Shown: positions 3,245-36,059 of the stretch, piece by piece | Layout: each line of letters starts with the position of its first letter | How positions within the stretch are numbered: the stretch's first letter is position 1 | DNA from: Caulobacter sp. FWC26 | GTDB lineage: Bacteria > Pseudomonadota > Alphaproteobacteria > Caulobacterales > Caulobacteraceae | Length of the DNA: 64,000 nucleotides | Reading direction: 5' to 3' | NCBI RefSeq assembly: GCF_002742645.2 | Contig: NZ_CP033875.1 | Span: forward strand, 3,140,001-3,204,000 | Program-made: the position numbers and the translations under genes | The notes under the pieces: generated by a model | Seen by the model: only the letters and a program-made list of their open reading frames with translations | What the model was told of the DNA's origin: nothing | Database searches by the model: none

Positions 3245-3700
3245 TCAGGCCGCCAGCGCCGCCGAGCCGGGGACCAGCGCCGTCACCACCAGACGGCTGA
3301 GCATGCGACCTTCCAGCGGAATGATCGCGTCGACAAAGGCTTCGCCGTTCAACTCCATCGCCGGCGGCGCTTGGAGAACATCGGCGTCGACCATGAAAGT
3401 CTCTTGCACCGCGTCGACCAGCAGCCCCACCAGTTGGTTCGCCGAGCGAACCACGACAATGACATTGCGGGACGAAGGCTCCGTGCGTCCCAGACCCAGG
3501 CGGCTGCGAAGGTCGAAGACGGGCATGACCGCGCCACGCAGATTGATCACGCCGAGAATATAGCTGGGCGTATTGGGCATCGGCGTCGCTGGCGTCCAAC
3601 CGCGGATTTCGCGGACCACCGAGATGTCGATGCAGAATTCCTGACCGCTGATCTCGAAGGAGATCAGTTCCAATCGGCCCTGGGCCAAGACATCCTGCAT
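3245..3700 (-). CDS. cheW: CheW chemotaxis coupling protein
   Basis: 151 residues with the full CheW fold: LELISFEISGQEFCIDISVV at the N-terminus, then VREIRG, the ILGVINLRGAVMPVFDLR block around residues 49-66, and VGLLVDAVQE. CheW links chemoreceptor tips to the kinase CheA in the cytoplasmic array. Its ATG shares one base with the stop of the chemoreceptor gene upstream (TGATG), so the two are translationally coupled and probably work together. No cheA or other che genes are in the window, so it must join a kinase encoded elsewhere. Confidence 0.93.
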   Translation of the reverse strand: MQDVLAQGRLELISFEISGQEFCIDISVVREIRGWTPATPMPNTPSYILGVINLRGAVMPVFDLRSRLGLGRTEPSSRNVIVVVRSANQLVGLLVDAVQETFMVDADVLQAPPAMELNGEAFVDAIIPLEGRMLSRLVVTALVPGSAALAA

Positions 3701-5484
3701 CAGAACTCCTCCCAGCTTTCGGTCTTCAGCGCGGTGGCGCCGATCGTGCCCGGGCGGCTTTCAGCGAAGGTTTGGGCCTTACGCTGGGCGGCGTGGACGG
3801 GTGAGGTCTTTGACTGCGGCGCGGGGGCTGCCCGCGAGCCGCCGTAGCGGAACTTGCCGATCAGGTCTGCGAGCACCACCGTCTCTTCGCGGAGGGAATG
3901 CGCCGCCGCAGTGGCCTCTTCCACCATCGCGGCGTTCTGCTGTGTGACCTGGTCCATCTGATTGACAGCGGCGTTGACCTCGTTGAGGCCGACGGCTTGC
4001 TGTTGCGAAGAGGTGGCGATCTCCGAGATCAGCGCGTCGATCTGAGCGACCTTTTCCACGATCATCGTCAGCGCCTGACCGGTGTCGCCCACCAGCTTGA
4101 CGCCGCGGCCAACCTGCGAGGTGCTGCTGGCGATCAGCGTCTTGATCTCCTTGGCCGCGTCGGCCGAGCGCTGGGCCAGGGCGCGGACTTCCTGGGCGAC
4201 GACGGCAAAGCCGCGCCCCGCCTCGCCGGCGCGCGCCGCCTCGACCCCAGCGTTCAGGGCCAGGAGGTTAGTCTGGAAGGCGATCTCGTCGATCACCCCA
4301 ATGATCTGGGTGATCTGACCCGAGCTCTGCTCGATCTCGCCCATGGCCTGGACGGCCTCGCGCATCACCGCACCGGACTGCTCGGCGTCACTGCGGGTGC
4401 TGGACGCGGCCGACGAGGCCTGCTTGGCGTTCTCGGCCGCCCGCTTGACCGTGGCGGTGATCTCGTCGAGCGCCGCTGCGGTCTCTTCGAGGCTCGCGGC
4501 CTGTTGTTCGGTGCGTCGAGACAGGTCGTCGGACGAACTGCGGATCTCTTCGGTGCCCGACTTGATCGTTTCGGCGGTGTGACCGACCTGCTGCATCGCG
4601 TTCTGCAAGGTCTCCAGCGCGCGGTTGAAGTCCTGGCGCAACTGGTCGAGTTCGGGGATGAACGCCTTGTCGATGCGCTGCTGCAGATCGCCCTGCGCCA
4701 GCGCCGTCAGCGCTTCGCCGATCTCGCTCACCGCCTCTACGCGCTTGGTCACGTCGGTGGCGAACTTGACGATCTTCACCACCCTGCCCTGGTCGTCGAT
4801 GATCGGATTGTATGAGCCTTGGATCGTCACGCTCGCGCCGCCCTTGCCGATCCGCTTGAACTCGGCGGCCTTGTACTCCCCGCGCTTAAGTTCAGCCCAG
4901 AAATCCGCATAGTCCTGACTGTCGCGATAAGCGGGCTCGACGAACATGCTGTGCTTACGCCCGATCACTTCAGCGGACGTGTAGCCCATGGTGTTCAGGA
5001 AGTTCTCGTTCGCATCGAGGATCGTGCCGTCGAGGTCGAACGCAATCATGGCCTGAGACCGGCTGATCGCGGCGATCTGGGCAGTGTAGTCGACATTCAG
5101 CAGACGCTCCTTGGCGTCGGCCCACTCCACCACGAAGCCCGTGATTTTGCCGCCTGCCCGCAAAGGGGTCACCAGCAGGTCGAACGCCAGTTTGCCGACG
5201 CGAATGGTCGCCGCGTAGGGCTTGGTCAGCTTGGCCAGCATCCCGCGCTGGTGCGCGGGGTTCTTGTGGAACACATCGATATTGCTGCCGACCAGCTTGG
5301 CGACGCTGAAGTTCGGCAACTCCTTGCGGATATCGGCCTCGTTCTCGGTCAACAGTGCGGTGACCGCAGTGTTCAGATAGGTGATGTTGAGCTTGGCGTC
5401 CGCCACCATGACGTTGGCCCGCAGGGCCTCAAGAACTTGGACCCCCTCAAGGCCCTTTCCAGTTCTTGCAAATAAATTCAGCAT
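3700..5484 (-). CDS. Soluble PAS-PAS methyl-accepting chemotaxis protein
   Basis: 594 residues without a signal or membrane segment. Two PAS domains cover about 15-130 and 135-255 (the second has [18 protein letters not shown]), then a HAMP-like linker and a complete MA signalling domain whose hairpin tip is [20 protein letters not shown]. The C-terminus ends in SWEEF, resembling the NWETF pentapeptide that tethers CheR/CheB. PAS receptors of this type sense internal redox or oxygen state through a bound cofactor, but the ligand here is unknown. It is the first gene of a two-gene unit with cheW. The ATG at 5484 has GAAGG seven bases upstream. Confidence 0.9.
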
Positions 5485-5841
5485 TTCGAGGCCTTCGACT
5501 TCATGAATAGACAGGCAAAGCTATTCGTTAAGGCCAAGCTCGCGACGGCGGGTTAAAAATTTATTTCAGCGTTATCCCAGCCCAAAAATAATGACAATTT
5601 GACGCAGCATCCAACCGACTATTTCATACGTGCACTTCGAAACTGACTTTCCTTTAGTTGAACTTGCGAATGCAAAACATAAAAGGTCGCATAAATGAAA
5701 GCAGGGCTGGATGTTTCTACCCAGCCCTGACACGGCGAAGTAATGCGGCCTCGTCAGCGCCGAGGAGACCAGCAAGTTCGGCATGCTGTAGAGTAGGCGC
5801 CAAGCCACCGCGCGGAACGCGGGCGACTGGCGGCGGTTCGG
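5485..5841. other. Intergenic region, 357 bases
   Basis: No convincing gene. The part from about 5555 to 5700 is clearly more AT-rich than its surroundings and should hold the promoter of the chemoreceptor operon. A hairpin at 5702-5729 is annotated separately. A 78-residue open frame on the minus strand (5572-5808) has no ribosome-binding site and unusual composition and is not called. Confidence 0.6.
5702..5729 (-). terminator. Probable terminator of the gene ending at 5842
   Basis: CAGGGCTGG (5702-5710) pairs perfectly with CCAGCCCTG (5721-5729) around a 10-base loop. On the minus strand the stem is followed by CTTTCATTT, a modest T-rich tail. It lies 112 bases past the stop of the small gene at 5842. 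Confidence 0.4.
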
Positions 5842-6171
5842 CTAAGCCTCGCCTTGAATGGCCTGGCGCAGCCGGGCCGCGACGTCGCCCAGCGTAATCG
5901 CGTTCAGCGAGTCATTGACGTCCAACACGCCCTGCCCATGCTGCTGCGAGAGATTGCCCGTAAAGTCGGTCAGCGCAGTGACGTGCTGCGCTAGCAGGTC
6001 GACCGTGTGAAGTTCCTGCATCACCGAGAGGCGGTGCTCGTCGGGGACGACCTCAAGAATCTTGCCCAGCGCCACGTCCAGGTGCCCGCAGGCGACGGCC
6101 GCCAACGACATCTCCGCGGAAATCGCCTTCAACACCGTCTCAACGCTCGCCAGTGCCATCTTATCCGACAT
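5842..6171 (-). CDS. Small helical hypothetical protein
   Basis: 109 residues starting MSDKMALASVETVLKAISAE, with no signal peptide or membrane segment. The sequence reads as amphipathic helices (VLKAISAEMSLAAVACGHLD, ALGKILEVVPDEHRLSVMQE, LHTVDLLAQHVTALTDF). I do not recognise the family. It sits upstream of the PAS chemoreceptor on the same strand, separated by 357 bases, and helical bundles of this size occur among chemotaxis adaptors, but nothing in the sequence proves such a role. Clean composition and a sensible start at 6171 support a real gene. Confidence 0.6.
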   Translation of the reverse strand: MSDKMALASVETVLKAISAEMSLAAVACGHLDVALGKILEVVPDEHRLSVMQELHTVDLLAQHVTALTDFTGNLSQQHGQGVLDVNDSLNAITLGDVAARLRQAIQGEA

Positions 6172-13028: not shown

Positions 13029-13085
13029 GGGGCCCAAGACCTGATCGTTGACGTCTCGCGACCCTAGATCCGGTTGCGCGCCTTT

Positions 13086-13099
13086 GGAAACCGGTTTCC
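13086..13099. promoter_or_regulatory. LacI-type operator upstream of the esterase gene
   Basis: GGAAACCGGTTTCC is a perfect 14-base palindrome with the central CG and GAAA/TTTC arms typical of LacI-family operators. It lies 58 bases before the esterase start and touches the stop codon of the methyltransferase gene. The LacI regulator at 15355 is the nearest candidate to bind it. Confidence 0.6.
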
Positions 13100-13905
13100 T
13101 AATCCCCTGCGAAGCGCAGGTGATGCAAGACGATGCCGCTGGTCGTGGCCACGTTCAGCGAGTCGAAGCCATTGGCCATCGGAATGCCGATCCTGCGCGC
13201 CCTGGCCATGACCTCCGCCGTCAGGCCCGGCCCTTCGGCCCCGAGCAGCACCGCCGTCCGAGGCGCGGGCTTGAGCGTCGCCAGCACCTCGTCGGCGGCG
13301 GGACTAAGCGCCAGAGCCTGAAAGCCGGTTGTCGAAAGCAGATCCGCGATCGGCTCGCCCCGGGCGAGTCTGGCCGTCGGGACCGACAGAACCGCGCCTA
13401 CCGAGACGCGGATGGCCTTGCGGTAAAGAGGATCGCAACAGTCGGCGTCGAGGATCACGGCGTCCGCGCCAAAGGCTGCGGCGTTGCGATAGATGCCGCC
13501 GATATTGTCGTGGTTGGCGATGCCGCAGAGGACCAAAACCACCGCTCGCGCGGGCAGGCTCGACAACAGGTCGCGCGCGTCGAGAGACGGCGGCTTGCGG
13601 CCTAACGCGAGAACGCCCCGATGCAGGTGAAAGCCGGCGATCGCGTCTAGAACCTCTTGGTCGGCCAGGTGAACCGGCGTGTCTTGGGGCAGTCCGGTGA
13701 GAACATCATCGAGCTTGTCACGCCGCTTCGGGTCGATCAGCAACGAAAAAAGGCGTTCGGGCGCGTCGCGCGCGAAGGCCCGCAGCACGGTTTCCCCCTC
13801 GGCGATGAAAAGACCTTCGCGGCCGACAAGGTCGCGCTCCTTGATCGCACGAAATGGTGCGACGGCGGGATCGTCAGGGTGCGAGACACGATGAAACTGG
13901 GGCAA
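13099..13905 (-). CDS. SpoU/TrmH-family RNA 2'-O-methyltransferase
   Basis: 268 residues if it starts at the TTG at 13905, which has GAGG five bases upstream; the open frame reaching 14040 would overlap the MFS gene. The SPOUT domain is complete: VLVLCGIANHDNIGGIYRNA (motif 1), LLGAEGPGLTAEVM (motif 2) and IPMANGFDSLNVATTSGIVL (motif 3). The N-terminus (FIAEGETVLRAF) is the usual substrate-binding domain. Such enzymes methylate ribose 2'-OH groups in tRNA or rRNA using S-adenosylmethionine; the target nucleotide is not evident. It is a housekeeping-type gene between two sugar genes and may be co-transcribed with the MFS gene. Confidence 0.88.
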   Translation of the reverse strand: MPQFHRVSHPDDPAVAPFRAIKERDLVGREGLFIAEGETVLRAFARDAPERLFSLLIDPKRRDKLDDVLTGLPQDTPVHLADQEVLDAIAGFHLHRGVLALGRKPPSLDARDLLSSLPARAVVLVLCGIANHDNIGGIYRNAAAFGADAVILDADCCDPLYRKAIRVSVGAVLSVPTARLARGEPIADLLSTTGFQALALSPAADEVLATLKPAPRTAVLLGAEGPGLTAEVMARARRIGIPMANGFDSLNVATTSGIVLHHLRFAGD

Positions 13906-31187: not shown

Positions 31188-31610
31188 ATGAACGATCGAC
31201 TCGCAGCCGAACAGGCCCATCCCGTTGATCTCTATGTCGGGGCCCGGCTGAGAATTCGTCGCAAGATGATGGGTCTCAGCCAGACTCAGGTCGCCGACGC
31301 GCTCGGCATTACCTTCCAGCAGATCCAGAAGTACGAGCGCGGCGCCAACCGGATCAGCGCCAGCAAGCTCTACGACGCTGCGAAGCTGCTTCAGGCCCCC
31401 GTCTCTTACTTCTTCGAAGGACTGGATGAGACGGACGGCGGCGTCGATGATGGGTTCGCCCAGCGCATGACGGAATTTGTGTCCACGCCGGAAGGTCTTG
31501 AGCTCGCCAGCCTGTTCCCGCGTCTGGCCGATCGTCGCCTTCGCCGTCGCGTGGTCGATCTCGTCCGGGCCATGGTGGACGATGACGGCCCCGACAACGG
31601 CGCCGCCTAG
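31188..31610 (+). CDS. XRE-family transcriptional regulator
   Basis: 140 residues. The Cro/C1-type HTH spans about 18-72 (VGARLRIRRKMMGLSQTQVA, LGITFQQIQKYERGANRISA). A short helical C-terminus follows (LASLFPRLADRRLRRRVVDL). This type of protein is widespread in alphaproteobacteria (PraR/SinR-like), often acting on quorum sensing, redox or motility genes. It is transcribed alone and ends in a clear terminator. The target cannot be deduced. Confidence 0.9.
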   Translation: MNDRLAAEQAHPVDLYVGARLRIRRKMMGLSQTQVADALGITFQQIQKYERGANRISASKLYDAAKLLQAPVSYFFEGLDETDGGVDDGFAQRMTEFVSTPEGLELASLFPRLADRRLRRRVVDLVRAMVDDDGPDNGAA

Positions 31611-31629
31611 TCGAACCGCTGGCTCCACG

Positions 31630-31656
31630 ACCCCGCCGACAGCGGGGTCTTTTTTT
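31630..31656 (+). terminator. Rho-independent terminator after the XRE gene
   Basis: ACCCCGC (31630-31636) pairs with GCGGGGT (31642-31648), loop CGACA, followed by CTTTTTTT. It begins 20 bases after the XRE stop. Confidence 0.9.
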
Positions 31657-31732
31657 GAGCCTCACGTCGCGAGAATCGAGCGGTGCGCACGGCTCAGCTT
31701 TCCCGCCTTGAAGGGGGTGCGAGGGCCAATCG

Positions 31733-31760
31733 GGCGCTACTCGAAGCTTCGAGAGGCGCC
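31733..31760. repeat. 28-bp near-perfect palindrome upstream of the HU gene
   Basis: CTCGAAGCTTCGAG (31740-31753) is a perfect palindrome. It is flanked by GGCGC (31733-31737) and GCGCC (31756-31760), so 24 of 28 bases are self-complementary. It lies 135 bases before the HU start. It could be a large operator or a cruciform. Confidence 0.5.
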
Positions 31761-31895
31761 ATAATTGTAAAAAACCCCGCGCTACGGGCGTTTTGTCCCC
31801 GTGAATCGGCGTTTTAACCTTTCCTAACGGGTGACAAACGCGATCGGTGTCGTCAGGCTCGAATTTCCCTGATTCACAGGAATGAGCTTGAGAAG

Positions 31896-32174
31896 ATGAA
31901 CGTTTCCGATCTGGTCGACGCCGCTGTCGCCGCCGACGAAAAACTGACGAAGACCCAGGCCAAGGCCATCATCGACGGCGTCTTCAAGTCGATCTCCGAC
32001 GCTGCCGTGAAGGGTGAAGAAGTCTCGATCCCGGGCTTCGGCAAGTTCAAGGTCCAGTCCAAGCCGGCTCGCACCGGCCGTAACCCGGCCACGGGCGCGA
32101 CCATCGAAATCGCCGCCAGCAAGAAGGTCGCCTTCACGCCGGCCAAGCAACTGAAGGACGCCGTCAACGGCTAA
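31896..32174 (+). CDS. HU-family DNA-binding protein
   Basis: 92 residues, the normal HU length. Features: MNVSDLVDAAVAADEKLTKT at the start, VSIPGFGKFKVQSKPARTGR and the DNA-arm core RNPATGATIEI, then AASKKVAFTPAKQLKDAVNG. HU bends and compacts DNA and supports replication and transcription. It is monocistronic, with a 285-base upstream region after the XRE terminator. A hairpin at 32186-32212 follows it. Confidence 0.96.
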   Translation: MNVSDLVDAAVAADEKLTKTQAKAIIDGVFKSISDAAVKGEEVSIPGFGKFKVQSKPARTGRNPATGATIEIAASKKVAFTPAKQLKDAVNG

Positions 32175-32185
32175 ACCTTTGGGCG

Positions 32186-32212
32186 GAAGGCGACGCCTGG
32201 CGCTTCGCCTTC
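32186..32212 (+). terminator. Candidate terminator after the HU gene
   Basis: GAAGGCGA (32186-32193) pairs with TCGCCTTC (32205-32212) across an 11-base loop. It starts 11 bases past the HU stop. The tail is not T-rich, so efficiency is uncertain. Confidence 0.45.
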
Positions 32213-32274
32213 TCGCAACGGCTTCGGGGTGCGACGTTACGCCAAAGGCAAACGTTGCACCCTAAGGCTTTTCG

Positions 32275-32289
32275 GAACAAATCAAGAAC
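32275..32289 (+). promoter_or_regulatory. LexA (SOS) box
   Basis: GAAC (32275-32278), seven bases, GAAC (32286-32289): an exact match to the alphaproteobacterial SOS box GTTC-N7-GTTC read on the other strand. It is 14 bases before the radical SAM start codon at 32304, inside the expected promoter. It implies DNA-damage induction of the repair pair downstream. Confidence 0.8.
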
Positions 32290-32303
32290 GATACCATGTG
32301 TTC

Positions 32304-33523
32304 ATGGCCGTTCTCGATCTCCGGCGCAAGCTCGCCATTCTCTCCGACGCCGCAAAGTACGACGCGTCGTGCGCGTCATCCGGCGCCACCAAGCGCGACT
32401 CCCTTGGCGGCAAGGGCGTGGGTTCCACCGAGGGCATGGGCATCTGCCACGCCTACGCGCCGGACGGGCGCTGCATAAGTCTGCTCAAGATTCTTCTGAC
32501 CAACTTCTGCATCTACGACTGCGCCTACTGCATCAATCGTGTGTCGTCGAACACCCCCGGGCGCGGTTCACGGTGAAGGAGATCGTCGATCTCACGCTCA
32601 ATTTCTATAAGCGCAACTACATCGAGGGCCTGTTCCTGTCGTCAGGTGTTATCCGGTCGGGTGACTACACGATGGAGGAAATGGTCCGCGTAGCGAAATC
32701 ACTGCGCCTGGACCACGACTTTCGGGGCTATATTCACCTGAAGCTGATCCCCGAAGCCTCGCCAGAACTGGCGGCCGAGGCCGGTCTCTACGCCGACCGC
32801 GTGTCGATCAACATCGAGCTGCCGCGCGACGATAGCTTGAAAACCCTGGCGCCGGAAAAGAACCCGACAGACATCAAGCGCGCCATGGGCCGTATGCGCC
32901 TGGCGATCGACGACCATGCGGAGCCCGCTCGACGAACGCGACCTCGGGTCTTCGCGCGCAGCCAGTCCACTCAGTTGATTGTCGGCGCGGACGAAGCCCG
33001 AGACGGCGATATCCTGGCACGCAGCGCCAATCTTTATGGGGCGTACCGCCTAAGCCGGGTCTACTACTCGGCCTTCAGCCCGATCCCCGACGCCAGCCAC
33101 CGACTGCCGCTTGTGCGCCCGCCGCTCCTGCGCGAACACCGGTTGTATCAAGCGGACTGGCTTATGCGCTTCTACGGCTTCGAGCAGTCGGAGATCGTGG
33201 CGACGGGCGAGGACCTGGACCTCTCGGTCGACCCCAAGACGAATTGGGCGCTTAACAACCGCGCCAAGTTTCCGGTCGATGTGCAGACCGCAGATCGCGA
33301 GACCTTGCTGCGTGTGCCAGGCCTCGGCGCCAAAGCCGTGGAGCGTGTGTTGACCGCGCGGAAGGTCGCGCGACTGACCTTGGAAGACCTCAAGCGCGTA
33401 GGCGCGGTCCTGAAACGCGCCAAAGCCTTCGTCGTGACCGCCGACTGGACACCGGGCGCCTTGACCGACCAGGAGAGCCTCAAGTCCGCGCTCGCCCGCC
33501 CCCAGCAGTTGAGCCTGTTCTAA
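32304..33523 (+). pseudogene. Radical SAM DNA-repair/modification protein (UdgX partner), frameshifted
   Basis: The family is the SplB-like radical SAM protein found next to UdgX. Start ATG at 32304 (MAVLDLRRKLAILSDAAKYD). The iron-sulfur motif CxxxCxxC is intact at C69, C73 and C76 (NFCIYDCAYC). At about codon 85 the frame runs into a TGA at 32574-32576. The remainder, from RARFTVKEIVDLTLNFYKRN to a helix-hairpin-helix (LLRVPGLGAKAVERVL) and the stop at 33523, continues in another frame. One missing C in the C5 tract at 32554-32558 would restore it (N-T-P-R-A-R-F). It could be a true mutation, a sequencing error or a slippage site. An SOS box precedes it. Confidence 0.85.
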
Positions 33524-34993
33524 TGCGGGTCGTGCGACTGACGTCCGAGATCGATTTCGCCGGGTGGCGGTCTGCGGCCAGGGCCCTACGAGCGCAGGGC
33601 GTCGAGCCGCAAGCGTTGGTGTGGACGGTGGAACGAGACCTGTTCTCGCCCCCCCCTGGCGGGGGATGGGGGAGACGGTATCCACGCCGCCCGCTCAACC
33701 TCCGCCCCGCAGGACGAAAAGGGCTTCACCGTCCCCGCCGCCTTTCTCGAACTTGCCGAGCAGGTGATCCTGCATCGGTCGCCCGACCGCCTCGCCCTGC
33801 TTTATCGTATCCTCTGGCGGCTGGGACGCGAGCCTCGCCTGATCGAGAATCCCGCCGATCCTGACTTGGCCCGCGCCCGGGACATGGCCAAGGCCGTCAG
33901 TCGCGCCGCGCACAAGATGAAGGCCTTCGTCCGCTTCCGCCTGATCGAAGGTCCCCCCAAAGAGACTTACGCGGCGTGGTTCGAGCCGGCTCATCGTGTG
34001 ACCGAAGCCACGGCCCCCTTCTTCGCGCGTCGTTTCTCAAACATGGACTGGACGATCCTGACACCGGACGCCTGCGTGGCGTGGGACGGCGAACGCCTGA
34101 CGGTCTCTGAAGGCGCCGATCCCGCCGACGCGCCGTCCGAGGACGCGCAGGAAGCGCTTTGGCGAACCTACTACGCCTCCATCTTCAATCCCGCCCGCCT
34201 GAACCCTCGGCAGATGCGCCAGGAGATGCCAAAACGCTATTGGCGGAACCTGCCGGAGGCGACGCTCATTCCGGCCCTCATCGAAGCGGCCGAGCACCGC
34301 GCCGCCGCCATGGTCGAGACACCGCCCCGCCCTCCCTCCGTGCGCGTGCTCAAGGCAGCCCAGCGCCATGCGCGGGACGCATCATTCGGCGCGGGGACGC
34401 CGACGACGCCGGAGGCGGTCGAGGCGGGGGTGAGCGTTTGCCGCCGATGCGATCTCTGGCGTGACGCGACCCAGGGCGTCCCGGGCGAAGGCCCATCGAA
34501 CGCGCCCCTGATGTTTGTCGGCGAACAACCCGGCGATCAAGAAGACCTTGCGGGCCGCCCCTTCGTAGGCCCCGCAGGACAGCTCTTTGACCGAGCACTG
34601 GCCGAGGCCGGCGTTCCGCGCGAACGCGTCTACGTCACAAACGCGGTCAAGCACTTCAAGCACGACGCTCGCGGCAAGCGCCGTGTTCACAAGACACCGA
34701 CACAGGGCGAAGTCAGCGCCTGCCGTTGGTGGCTGGACGCCGAGCGGAGGCTCGTGAGGCCCCGCGTCACCGTGATGCTCGGCGCGACCGCGGCCCTTGG
34801 CGTGATCGGCCGCCCAACGCGGGTCGTCGAAGCAAGAGGACAGCCTTTGGGCTTGCCGGATCACACCCAGGGCTTGGTGACCTTTCACCCTGCCTATCTT
34901 CTCCGGCTTTCGGATCCGGCAGCGCGGCGCGCGGCCTACCAGAGCTTCGTCCACGATCTGAGGCTGGCGGGCGAACTGTCCGGAATGACCTGA
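33523..34993 (+). pseudogene. udgX: DUF4130-UdgX fusion (uracil-DNA glycosylase superfamily), frameshifted
   Basis: The start ATG at 33523 shares a base with the radical SAM stop (TAATG). The first part (VVRLTSEIDFAGWRSAARAL, PQALVWTVE) is in one frame. From about 33690 onward the protein continues in the next frame (FTVPAAFLELAEQVILHRSP) through DUF4130 (SNMDWTILTP, RQMRQEMPKRYWRNL) and a complete UdgX domain: GEQPGDQEDLAGRPFVGPAG, the R-loop KRRVHKTP (His is the covalent uracil acceptor in UdgX) and HPAYLLRL. The break is at a C8 tract and G-rich palindrome near 33649-33672. One extra base explains it. The UDG half could still be made from an internal start. Confidence 0.83.
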
Positions 34994-35080
34994 GCCCCGC
35001 CCTTCCCCACGAGCGAAAGAGGCCCCGCCTATGACCTCTCGCCTCAAACCCGACGCAAGCGCCCAGTCAGTCCGAAAACG

Positions 35081-35109
35081 AAAAAAGCCCGGACAAACGC
35101 CGGGCTTTT
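35081..35109 (-). terminator. Terminator of tRNA-His
   Basis: Read on the minus strand, AAAAGCCCGG and CCGGGCTTTT (35083-35092 and 35100-35109) form a stem with a 7-base loop, followed by TTTTTTCG. It lies 14 bases after the tRNA 3' end. Confidence 0.85.
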
Positions 35110-35122
35110 CAAAGGCTTGCGA

Positions 35123-35199
35123 TGGTACCAGCTCTCGGGCTCGAACCGAGGACCTCTAGATCCACAATCTAGCGCTCTAACCAACTGAGCTAAGCCGGC
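35123..35199 (-). tRNA. tRNA-His (GTG)
   Basis: 77 bases with encoded CCA. D-arm GCTCAGTTGGTTAGAGC, anticodon stem CTAGA/TCTAG around TTGTGGA giving anticodon GTG, T-arm CTCGG-TTCGAGC-CCGAG. The acceptor pairs GCCGGCT with AGCTGGT and includes G1-U72 and G4-U69. The discriminator is A73, and the base before position 1 is A, so no G-1 is encoded. This matches the unusual alphaproteobacterial tRNA-His class in place of the near-universal G-1:C73. Confidence 0.96.
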
Positions 35200-35266
35200 T
35201 CATCGCGAGGCGTTGTCTTTAGTGGGATCGTTCGCCGGGATCAAGCACCGATCCCGATGTTTTGAA

Positions 35267-35301
35267 CGGAAAACGCCCCGGAGCCGAAACTCCGGGGCGT
35301 T
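35267..35301 (-). terminator. Terminator of the exbB-exbD-tonB operon
   Basis: AACGCCCCGGAG (35272-35283) pairs perfectly with CTCCGGGGCGTT (35290-35301). On the minus strand the stem is followed by TTCCG. It lies 27 bases after the tonB stop. Confidence 0.8.
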
Positions 35302-35327
35302 CCTTAACTTTCGCCTTGCTCCAGGCC

Positions 35328-36059
35328 CTATTGCGGGACTTGGAACACCAGCGGGACGGTCACCTGGCCACCATCGACGGGCGCGCCGTCGAGGGTCTTC
35401 GGCTTCATCCGGAACAGGCGCGACAAGCGGATAGCCGCATCGCCGAAGCCCATGTCCGCCGGCGATTCGGAAACCACCGAGCAGCCTTCCAGAGTGCCCT
35501 TGGCCGTCACGGTGCACGAGATCGTCGCGCGACCGCTGACTTCCATCCGCTGAGCACGGTCCGGATAGTACCGGGCCATGTCGTCGCCGGAGGGCTTACG
35601 AGCCCAGTCCGGACGGGTGATGACCGAGGCGCGCGCCGGCGGGTTCGAAGGAACCGGCGGAGCGGCCGAGATCACCGGCGGAGCCGTCTGTTCCACACGC
35701 TTTTCAACGGGCGGAATCGGCAGCGGCGGCGGCGGCGTCACGTCCGGCGGCGGAGCCACCGGGGGACGCGGCTGAACCACGGCCGGAGGCGGCGGAGGTT
35801 CGTTGGTCGGAGGCGGCGGCGGCGGAGGCGGCGGCGGCGGCGGAGGCGGAGGCGGAAGCTCCACCACCGTCGCATCGTCCGAGTACTCCTGGAACACGGC
35901 TTCGAACTTTTGCTTCGCGAGGTACGCGAAGAGAAGCGCGTGCAGACCAACCACCACAGTCAGGGCGACACCGAAAGGACCGAAGCCCTTCTTGCGACGC
36001 GGACCATCCGAAGTGAGCGGATCGTAACGGCGATGCTCGGGCGTATTTTGATCAGCCAT
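35328..36059 (-). CDS. tonB: TonB energy transducer (copy 2, exb operon)
   Basis: 243 residues. The single membrane helix (about 27-49, FGPFGVALTVVVGLHALLFA) keeps His40 but has Val in place of the Ser of SxxxH. Then comes a run of 16 prolines near residues 70-85 and further Pro-rich spacer, and a TonB_C domain (about 155-243: ARYYPDRAQRMEVSGRATIS, VTAKGTLEGCSVVSESPADM). It follows exbD by 10 bases, so it should form the TonB-ExbB-ExbD complex that energises outer-membrane receptors such as the one at 49757-52705. Confidence 0.93.
   Translation of the reverse strand: MADQNTPEHRRYDPLTSDGPRRKKGFGPFGVALTVVVGLHALLFAYLAKQKFEAVFQEYSDDATVVELPPPPPPPPPPPPPPPPTNEPPPPPAVVQPRPPVAPPPDVTPPPPLPIPPVEKRVEQTAPPVISAAPPVPSNPPARASVITRPDWARKPSGDDMARYYPDRAQRMEVSGRATISCTVTAKGTLEGCSVVSESPADMGFGDAAIRLSRLFRMKPKTLDGAPVDGGQVTVPLVFQVPQ

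Follow-up and report, generated by a model that had tools for sequence, protein, structure and literature searches.

Both genes of a predicted SOS-controlled DNA-repair operon in Caulobacter sp. FWC26 are frameshifted in the genome assembly, and we asked whether the operon has really been lost, and what could have broken it. The window analyzed here is a stretch of 64,000 nucleotides (positions 3,140,001 to 3,204,000 of contig NZ_CP033875.1), part of a 4.53-Mb contig in a 4.87-Mb genome that we call G000; the nearest relative found is called G008. A LexA box, a radical SAM gene and a gene for a DUF4130-UdgX fusion follow one another on the plus strand (Table 1), flanked on one side by an HU-type gene (31896-32174, named from reading the sequence) and on the other by the tRNA-His gene (35123-35199). 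An Rfam scan of 31500-36000 gave nothing besides the tRNA. The two frameshifts, known from one assembly because a second genome of the species was looked for and not found, probably reflect a very recent loss of the operon in this lineage.

Table 1. Features of the radical SAM-UdgX operon, in positions of the window
Feature	Position	Strand	Remarks
LexA box GAACAAATCAAGAAC	32275..32289	+	exact motif, 14 bases ahead of ATG 32304
Radical SAM gene, first piece	32304..32576	+	CxxxCxxC cluster motif; ends at a wrong-frame stop; TIGR03916 positions 1-77
C5 run	32554..32558	+	point of the radical SAM frame change
Radical SAM gene, second piece	32558..33523	+	barrel and helix-hairpin-helix tail; TIGR03916 positions 79-397
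UdgX gene, first open frame	33523..33864	+	conserved only over about 33523-33648, remainder out of frame
79-nt linker	33646..33724	+	C8 run and CCCCCTGGCGGGGG palindrome (33652-33665); frame change here; likely a decayed palindromic repeat
UdgX gene, second piece	33671..34993	+	DUF4130 and UdgX domain, with GEQPG and KRRVH

The first-pass annotation of this DNA had placed an exact LexA box just before the radical SAM start codon, and the comparison with relatives bore this out. A motif match alone carries no significance in this genome, where GAAC-N7-GAAC has 147 exact matches and the reversed control 129, and we rejected an argument on that ground. The position of the box, in contrast, is conserved: all 22 same-genus loci have it 14-15 bases ahead of the ATG. 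A box in either orientation occurs in five of the six loci from other families in the order and, among the 76 named loci with a radical SAM match, in 64 within 150 bases. The box is intact in the window. We take COG4277 to be the radical SAM protein of TIGR03916. An SOS-regulated two-gene operon of a uracil-DNA glycosylase, COG1573-COG4277, is reported in Alphaproteobacteria and Verrucomicrobia in the pertinent passages of PMC8565304, which give the alphaproteobacterial LexA motif as GTTC-N7-GTTC and cite the Caulobacter crescentus SOS regulon paper as the source for the regulation. The operon described here has this direct repeat, in one of its two orientations, conserved at its promoter. Because those passages state the SOS regulation of COG1573-COG4277, the operon and its control are already published for Alphaproteobacteria and are not new here; the window holds the same kind of operon, but with both genes broken.

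The radical SAM gene is read in one frame for its initial 84-85 residues from 32304 and in another for the remainder (32558-33520), with the switch at the C5 run. No single uninterrupted TIGR03916 frame was found in the window, although both pieces match the family, the second alone with 403.3 bits (cut-off 343.5). The cluster motif of the first piece is FCIYDCAYC, and its three cysteines are invariant across 33 aligned relatives. A structure model made from the radical SAM protein of an intact relative (pLDDT 76.6, pTM 0.78, low around the cluster motif) resembles radical SAM barrels, HydE and lipoyl synthase among them. Residues 260-379 of the intact G008 protein match RuvA by sequence (E 1.6e-4), which fits DNA binding. 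The enzyme thus appears to combine a radical SAM barrel with a helix-hairpin-helix tail of the RuvA type, and we know of no reaction for this natural partner of UdgX. It had been called SplB-like in the first pass, a label that was also applied to DUF4130 partners in a 2013 paper. This label found no specific support, since spore photoproduct lyase was absent from the four PDB sequence matches of the radical SAM protein and from the best 50 matches listed in each of two structure comparisons.

Base editing and uracil mapping make use of UdgX to trap uracil. In the window, the N-terminal 42 residues of the fusion are read from 33523 and the DUF4130-UdgX part in another frame (33671-34990). This main piece scores 314.3 bits against TIGR03914 (cut-off 189.95), lies above the cut-off of TIGR03915 as well, and matches solved UdgX structures. 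A model of the piece has a mean pLDDT of 85 and a pTM of 0.48, at which the arrangement of the domains is not to be trusted, and the structure matches listed for it are all UDG-type chains. Motif A is GEQPG, and KRRVH corresponds to the R-loop KRRxH with its nucleophilic histidine. Motif B reads HPAYLLR, whereas the definition has HPS(S/A)(L/V)(L/V)R; of its residues, the His, Pro and Arg do not vary among 33 relatives. The relevant part of PMC10359453 defines UdgX by motifs that include KRRxH and describes the bond that the histidine of Mycobacterium smegmatis UdgX forms with DNA. The window protein has GEQPG and KRRxH in common with that enzyme and is about 48-50% identical to it over the domain by structure comparison, but differs from it in motif B, in its fusion to DUF4130 and in sharing an operon with a radical SAM gene. 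The coupling of the two genes in an operon, proposed from the sequence, was supported. The pieces match all three families, TIGR03916, TIGR03915 and TIGR03914 (rSAM_link_UDG, SAM_7_link_chp and UDG_fam_dom). These names already record a link between radical SAM and UDG proteins, and the window differs from them in its interrupted frames. No paper naming both UdgX and radical SAM was found in the literature searched.

The operon is intact in relatives. Of the loci that were read, 22 belong to the same genus and six to other families of the order. All 28 have a radical SAM stretch without a stop, and none of the 22 same-genus loci has a stop in the UdgX gene as translated from its start almost to where the match ends. 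A separate search flagged one stop each in the matched UdgX stretch of G034 and G002, which must lie at the extreme end or outside the stretch translated for the stop count. In the six loci from other families, tblastn showed the fusion only in pieces, the short N-terminal piece being missing in one (L064). A radical SAM gene is present in 30 of 61 genomes, with the copy of G023 a contig-edge fragment, and is split in mid-gene only in G000; all 30 carriers also have the fusion. Among the matches listed from 5.8 billion proteins, the closest radical SAM protein (P0001, 406 aa, 96% identical) and the closest UdgX protein (P0121, 489 aa, 94% identical) are both full length, and the 120 matches listed per query hold none closer. 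The module is dispensable: the radical SAM gene is missing from 13 of the 37 genomes of the genus, a number that takes in some incomplete assemblies. A strict pairing of the two genes was considered and rejected: in 190 genomes of the class, ten lie above the TIGR03916 cut-off and 16 above that of TIGR03914, and seven have both (one of them on different contigs). Two contigs, G036:C24 and G012:C11 (L067 and L068), carry a UdgX domain without DUF4130 in a genome without the radical SAM gene.

A further set of 80 named loci, which partly overlaps the other locus set, was also examined. All 80 UdgX genes keep at least 400 of the 487 fusion query residues in one frame. The radical SAM gene is whole in 73, was not found in the flank in four, is cut by the locus edge in one (L240) and changes frame in two. 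These two, at about 2000 in L200 (Mesorhizobium loti DSM 2626) and about 2439 in L204 (Ramlibacter terrae H242), have one frame change each and stand beside an unbroken UdgX gene.

To place the two breaks against a background, 440 kb of G000 was compared with a 299-kb contig of G008, in which 156 genes, 3% of the genome, matched at 70% identity or more. Within-gene frame changes occurred only in the radical SAM and UdgX genes of these 156 orthologs (155.8 kb). The window holds 45 of the 156, both broken genes included, and the statement that no other window gene appears broken therefore held. At the upper 95% limit of the rate estimated from the remaining 154 genes, the probability of two frame changes in one 2.8-kb operon is 0.0014, which makes random error unlikely but does not argue against error specific to the two tracts. 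The first-pass preference for a coordinated loss over random error thus stands in so far as a real loss is favored; it does not describe a rule, since the two named radical SAM genes above are broken beside unbroken UdgX genes.

Several candidates were discarded on the way to this count. A first survey with open reading frames chosen by length gave 31 and 43 candidates, mostly shadow frames, and codon-scored genes were used instead. These gave 13 candidates in G000: the two operon genes, four pairs of neighboring paralogs (about 52% identity) and seven genes with in-frame stops. In five of the seven the stop lies within the first 45 residues and was taken to mean an over-long start; the other two (76% and 72% identity), with deeper stops, were judged to be shadow frames and left uncounted. 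A G008 gene call that matches 13084-13743 of the window with two in-frame stops runs antisense to the gene called there and was likewise judged a shadow frame. The reverse comparison of G000 genes in G008 gave 17 candidates, the radical SAM gene and two frame changes at N-terminal ends among them, and stands outside the count.

Selection bears on the age of a loss. The dN/dS values of the pieces against G008 are 0.029, 0.049 and 0.131, and those between two intact relatives are 0.031, 0.063 and 0.096. A split of these distances over the three genomes, made by hand, assigns the second radical SAM piece about 0.06 on the branch to the window and 0.04 on that to G008; for the UdgX piece the values are 0.12 and 0.15. 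A neutral phase can therefore take up no more than a few per cent of the branch. Strong purifying selection is still visible in both genes, so that a real loss would be very young.

The same selection would be expected of genes that are really intact and were misread at the two tracts by sequencing or assembly. Tract-specific error of this kind, which we consider rather unlikely, could draw further on the C8 run and the hairpin at the UdgX break and on the fact that every same-genus relative is read unbroken. The C8 run is rare, one of only four G or C runs of eight in the 440 kb, and sequencing can go wrong in a G/C-rich hairpin; both points count against a loss, as do the two independent breaks, both of which need to be young. 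On the other hand, 154 further orthologs lack a within-gene frame change, the other C8 run that falls inside a called gene leaves that gene open, and C5 runs are so common (458 in 440 kb) that an error at just one of them would be unexpected. Reversible phase variation, with tract lengths that vary within the population, turning the module on and off, appears highly improbable. It would require two separate tracts to switch jointly, the C runs at the radical SAM break are no longer than four in relatives and the run is not conserved, and the linker sequence differs among the nearest intact UdgX proteins, even though a C8 run with a palindrome does mark one break and linker length and state do turn over between species.

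Partial function is compatible with a loss of the operon. The UdgX piece, with most of DUF4130 and the whole UdgX domain, could still be made from an internal start, for example GTG 33764, from which a 409-residue open frame with both domains extends. UdgX is found without the radical SAM gene in G036, in G012 and in nine of the 16 class genomes above the TIGR03914 cut-off, which counts in favor, but the long single fusion frame kept in all 80 named loci speaks against a shortened protein, and we think it quite unlikely that such a protein is in use. We retain a very recent loss of both genes as the preferred reading.

How did the UdgX gene break? The first-pass annotation described single-base breaks in both genes. 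There is indeed one frame change per gene, and that of the radical SAM gene is at the C5 run, but the UdgX break is not a plain slip of the C8 run: it falls in a palindromic linker of 79 nt, and a break of one base close to C8 is just one possible way to read it. Between the conserved parts the linker of the window has 79 nt, which is not a multiple of three; that of G008 has 75 nt, and that of P0121 has 26 residues, encoded by 78 nt. In the best alignment to G008 the difference in length falls in the G-rich arm of the hairpin.

In 22 same-genus UdgX proteins the linker, which follows TVERDLF or a variant of it, ranges from 12 to 52 residues. Classed by eye, seven have a full palindromic insert, three (G008, G018 and G007) and the window a partial one, and 12 none; the G007 linker, only 14 residues long, was classed as partial by resemblance. 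On a tree of both proteins without the linker, seven changes of state are needed, six of them forced by well-supported branches, a count for one genus in which gains and losses are not distinguishable. Shuffled labels need about eight changes, indicating that linker state is hardly clustered on the tree. The relatives' UdgX genes stay open through the insert, whereas that of the window does not.

The inserts of G020, G004, G010, G031, G034 and G002 are each a copy of a family dispersed in its own genome. Raw matches to the inserts, which may count one palindrome on both strands and come from a search that left the insert of G032 outside, number 25 in G020, 36 in G004, 28 in G010, 20 in G031, 25 in G005 and 0 in G022, and in a second set 66 in G034, 54 in G002, 31 in G007 and 7 in G018, with 0 in G000 and G008 for that query. 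G005 has its 25 matches without an insert in the linker. Searches with the window's own linker remnant gave no dispersed family for it; the linker nevertheless keeps CCCCCTGGCGGGGG, and its ends align with the insert of G031. Palindromic DNA thus likely entered the UdgX linker, in frame, in related species, and by its sequence the window linker likely descends from a dispersed palindromic element. G000 has a dispersed palindromic family of its own, of about 125 bp (G000:C3:1910811-1910935, L250), with 43 raw matches there, 80 in G008 and 81 in G001; G001 has no linker insert.

Inserts were also looked for in other genes. We fetched 60 insert loci, some of them two strands of one place, and four outside UdgX were open and coding-like on both sides in some scan: L116 and L125, in a helicase named Lhr-like from reading its sequence, L123, probably in a methyltransferase, and L136, likely in a shadow frame. 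From the palindromic family loci of G000, G008 and G001, only L274 passed the open-frame scan. In the helicase the stretch concerned lies at one site, after the GLSATVDDP motif. At 30 helicase loci of the genus (L280-L309), the stretch after W(L/M)(G/S) is 37-59 residues long in 22, 4-19 in seven and masked in one. The 37-59-residue stretch is mostly rich in proline and glycine, and in G031, G007 and G020 its sequence resembles that of the insert in the UdgX linker.

That dispersed palindromic elements can lie within reading frames is known. The relevant sections of PMC3733652 place REPs inside many DNA synthesis and repair genes, and these intragenic REPs and the palindromic elements of Rickettsia, as outlined there and in PMC10969869, resemble the Caulobacter inserts; in Xanthomonas, recB genes are hit at about one site, much like the UdgX linker. 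Caulobacter is not named in PMC3733652, and the repeated turnover at one UdgX linker, seven changes of state on a one-genus tree, sets the present case apart. The CIR elements of Caulobacter crescentus are dispersed repeats too, but are given as strictly intergenic in the part of PMC10969869 that deals with them. As far as the open-licence literature searched goes, UdgX and Lhr in Caulobacter are additions to the list of genes with intragenic REPs. We tentatively propose, as a possibility, that in Caulobacter dispersed palindromes insert again and again, in frame, at fixed positions in repair proteins (the UdgX linker and the Lhr-like helicase), rewriting some 20-40 residues each time, that leftover hairpins become slippage sites which later switch the gene off, and that the window shows an SOS repair operon just after such a switch-off.

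These observations allow a sketch of how the module would work and fail. LexA would repress the operon until DNA is damaged. In intact relatives, UdgX would then remove uracil and form a covalent bond to the abasic site by way of the histidine of KRRxH, as demonstrated for the M. smegmatis enzyme. The radical SAM protein with its DNA-binding-type tail may work on DNA at that lesion, close to it or on the trapped complex. In the window strain, the frame changes just after the iron-sulfur cluster motif and the barrel cannot follow in frame, so no complete radical SAM enzyme would be produced, and UdgX would be made at best in shortened form from an internal start. The UdgX break was likely made by slippage in the linker hairpin, and once one gene had failed its partner would have been free to decay. 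The strain has likely just lost the pair, and together with intact relatives under the same LexA box it would offer a natural control for the role of the pair. The linker, in turn, suggests a way in which palindromic repeats could add length to the repair proteins of a free-living genus and could also mark the points where they fail.

The short palindromic match at L123 (G004:C218, about 1500) lies in frame inside a methyltransferase-like open frame. On the 7.9-kb contig G004:C382, the Lhr-like helicase match (99-989) stands about 2.3 kb before the radical SAM-UdgX operon (3267-5962). In G020 and G031 the helicase and the operon are on different contigs.
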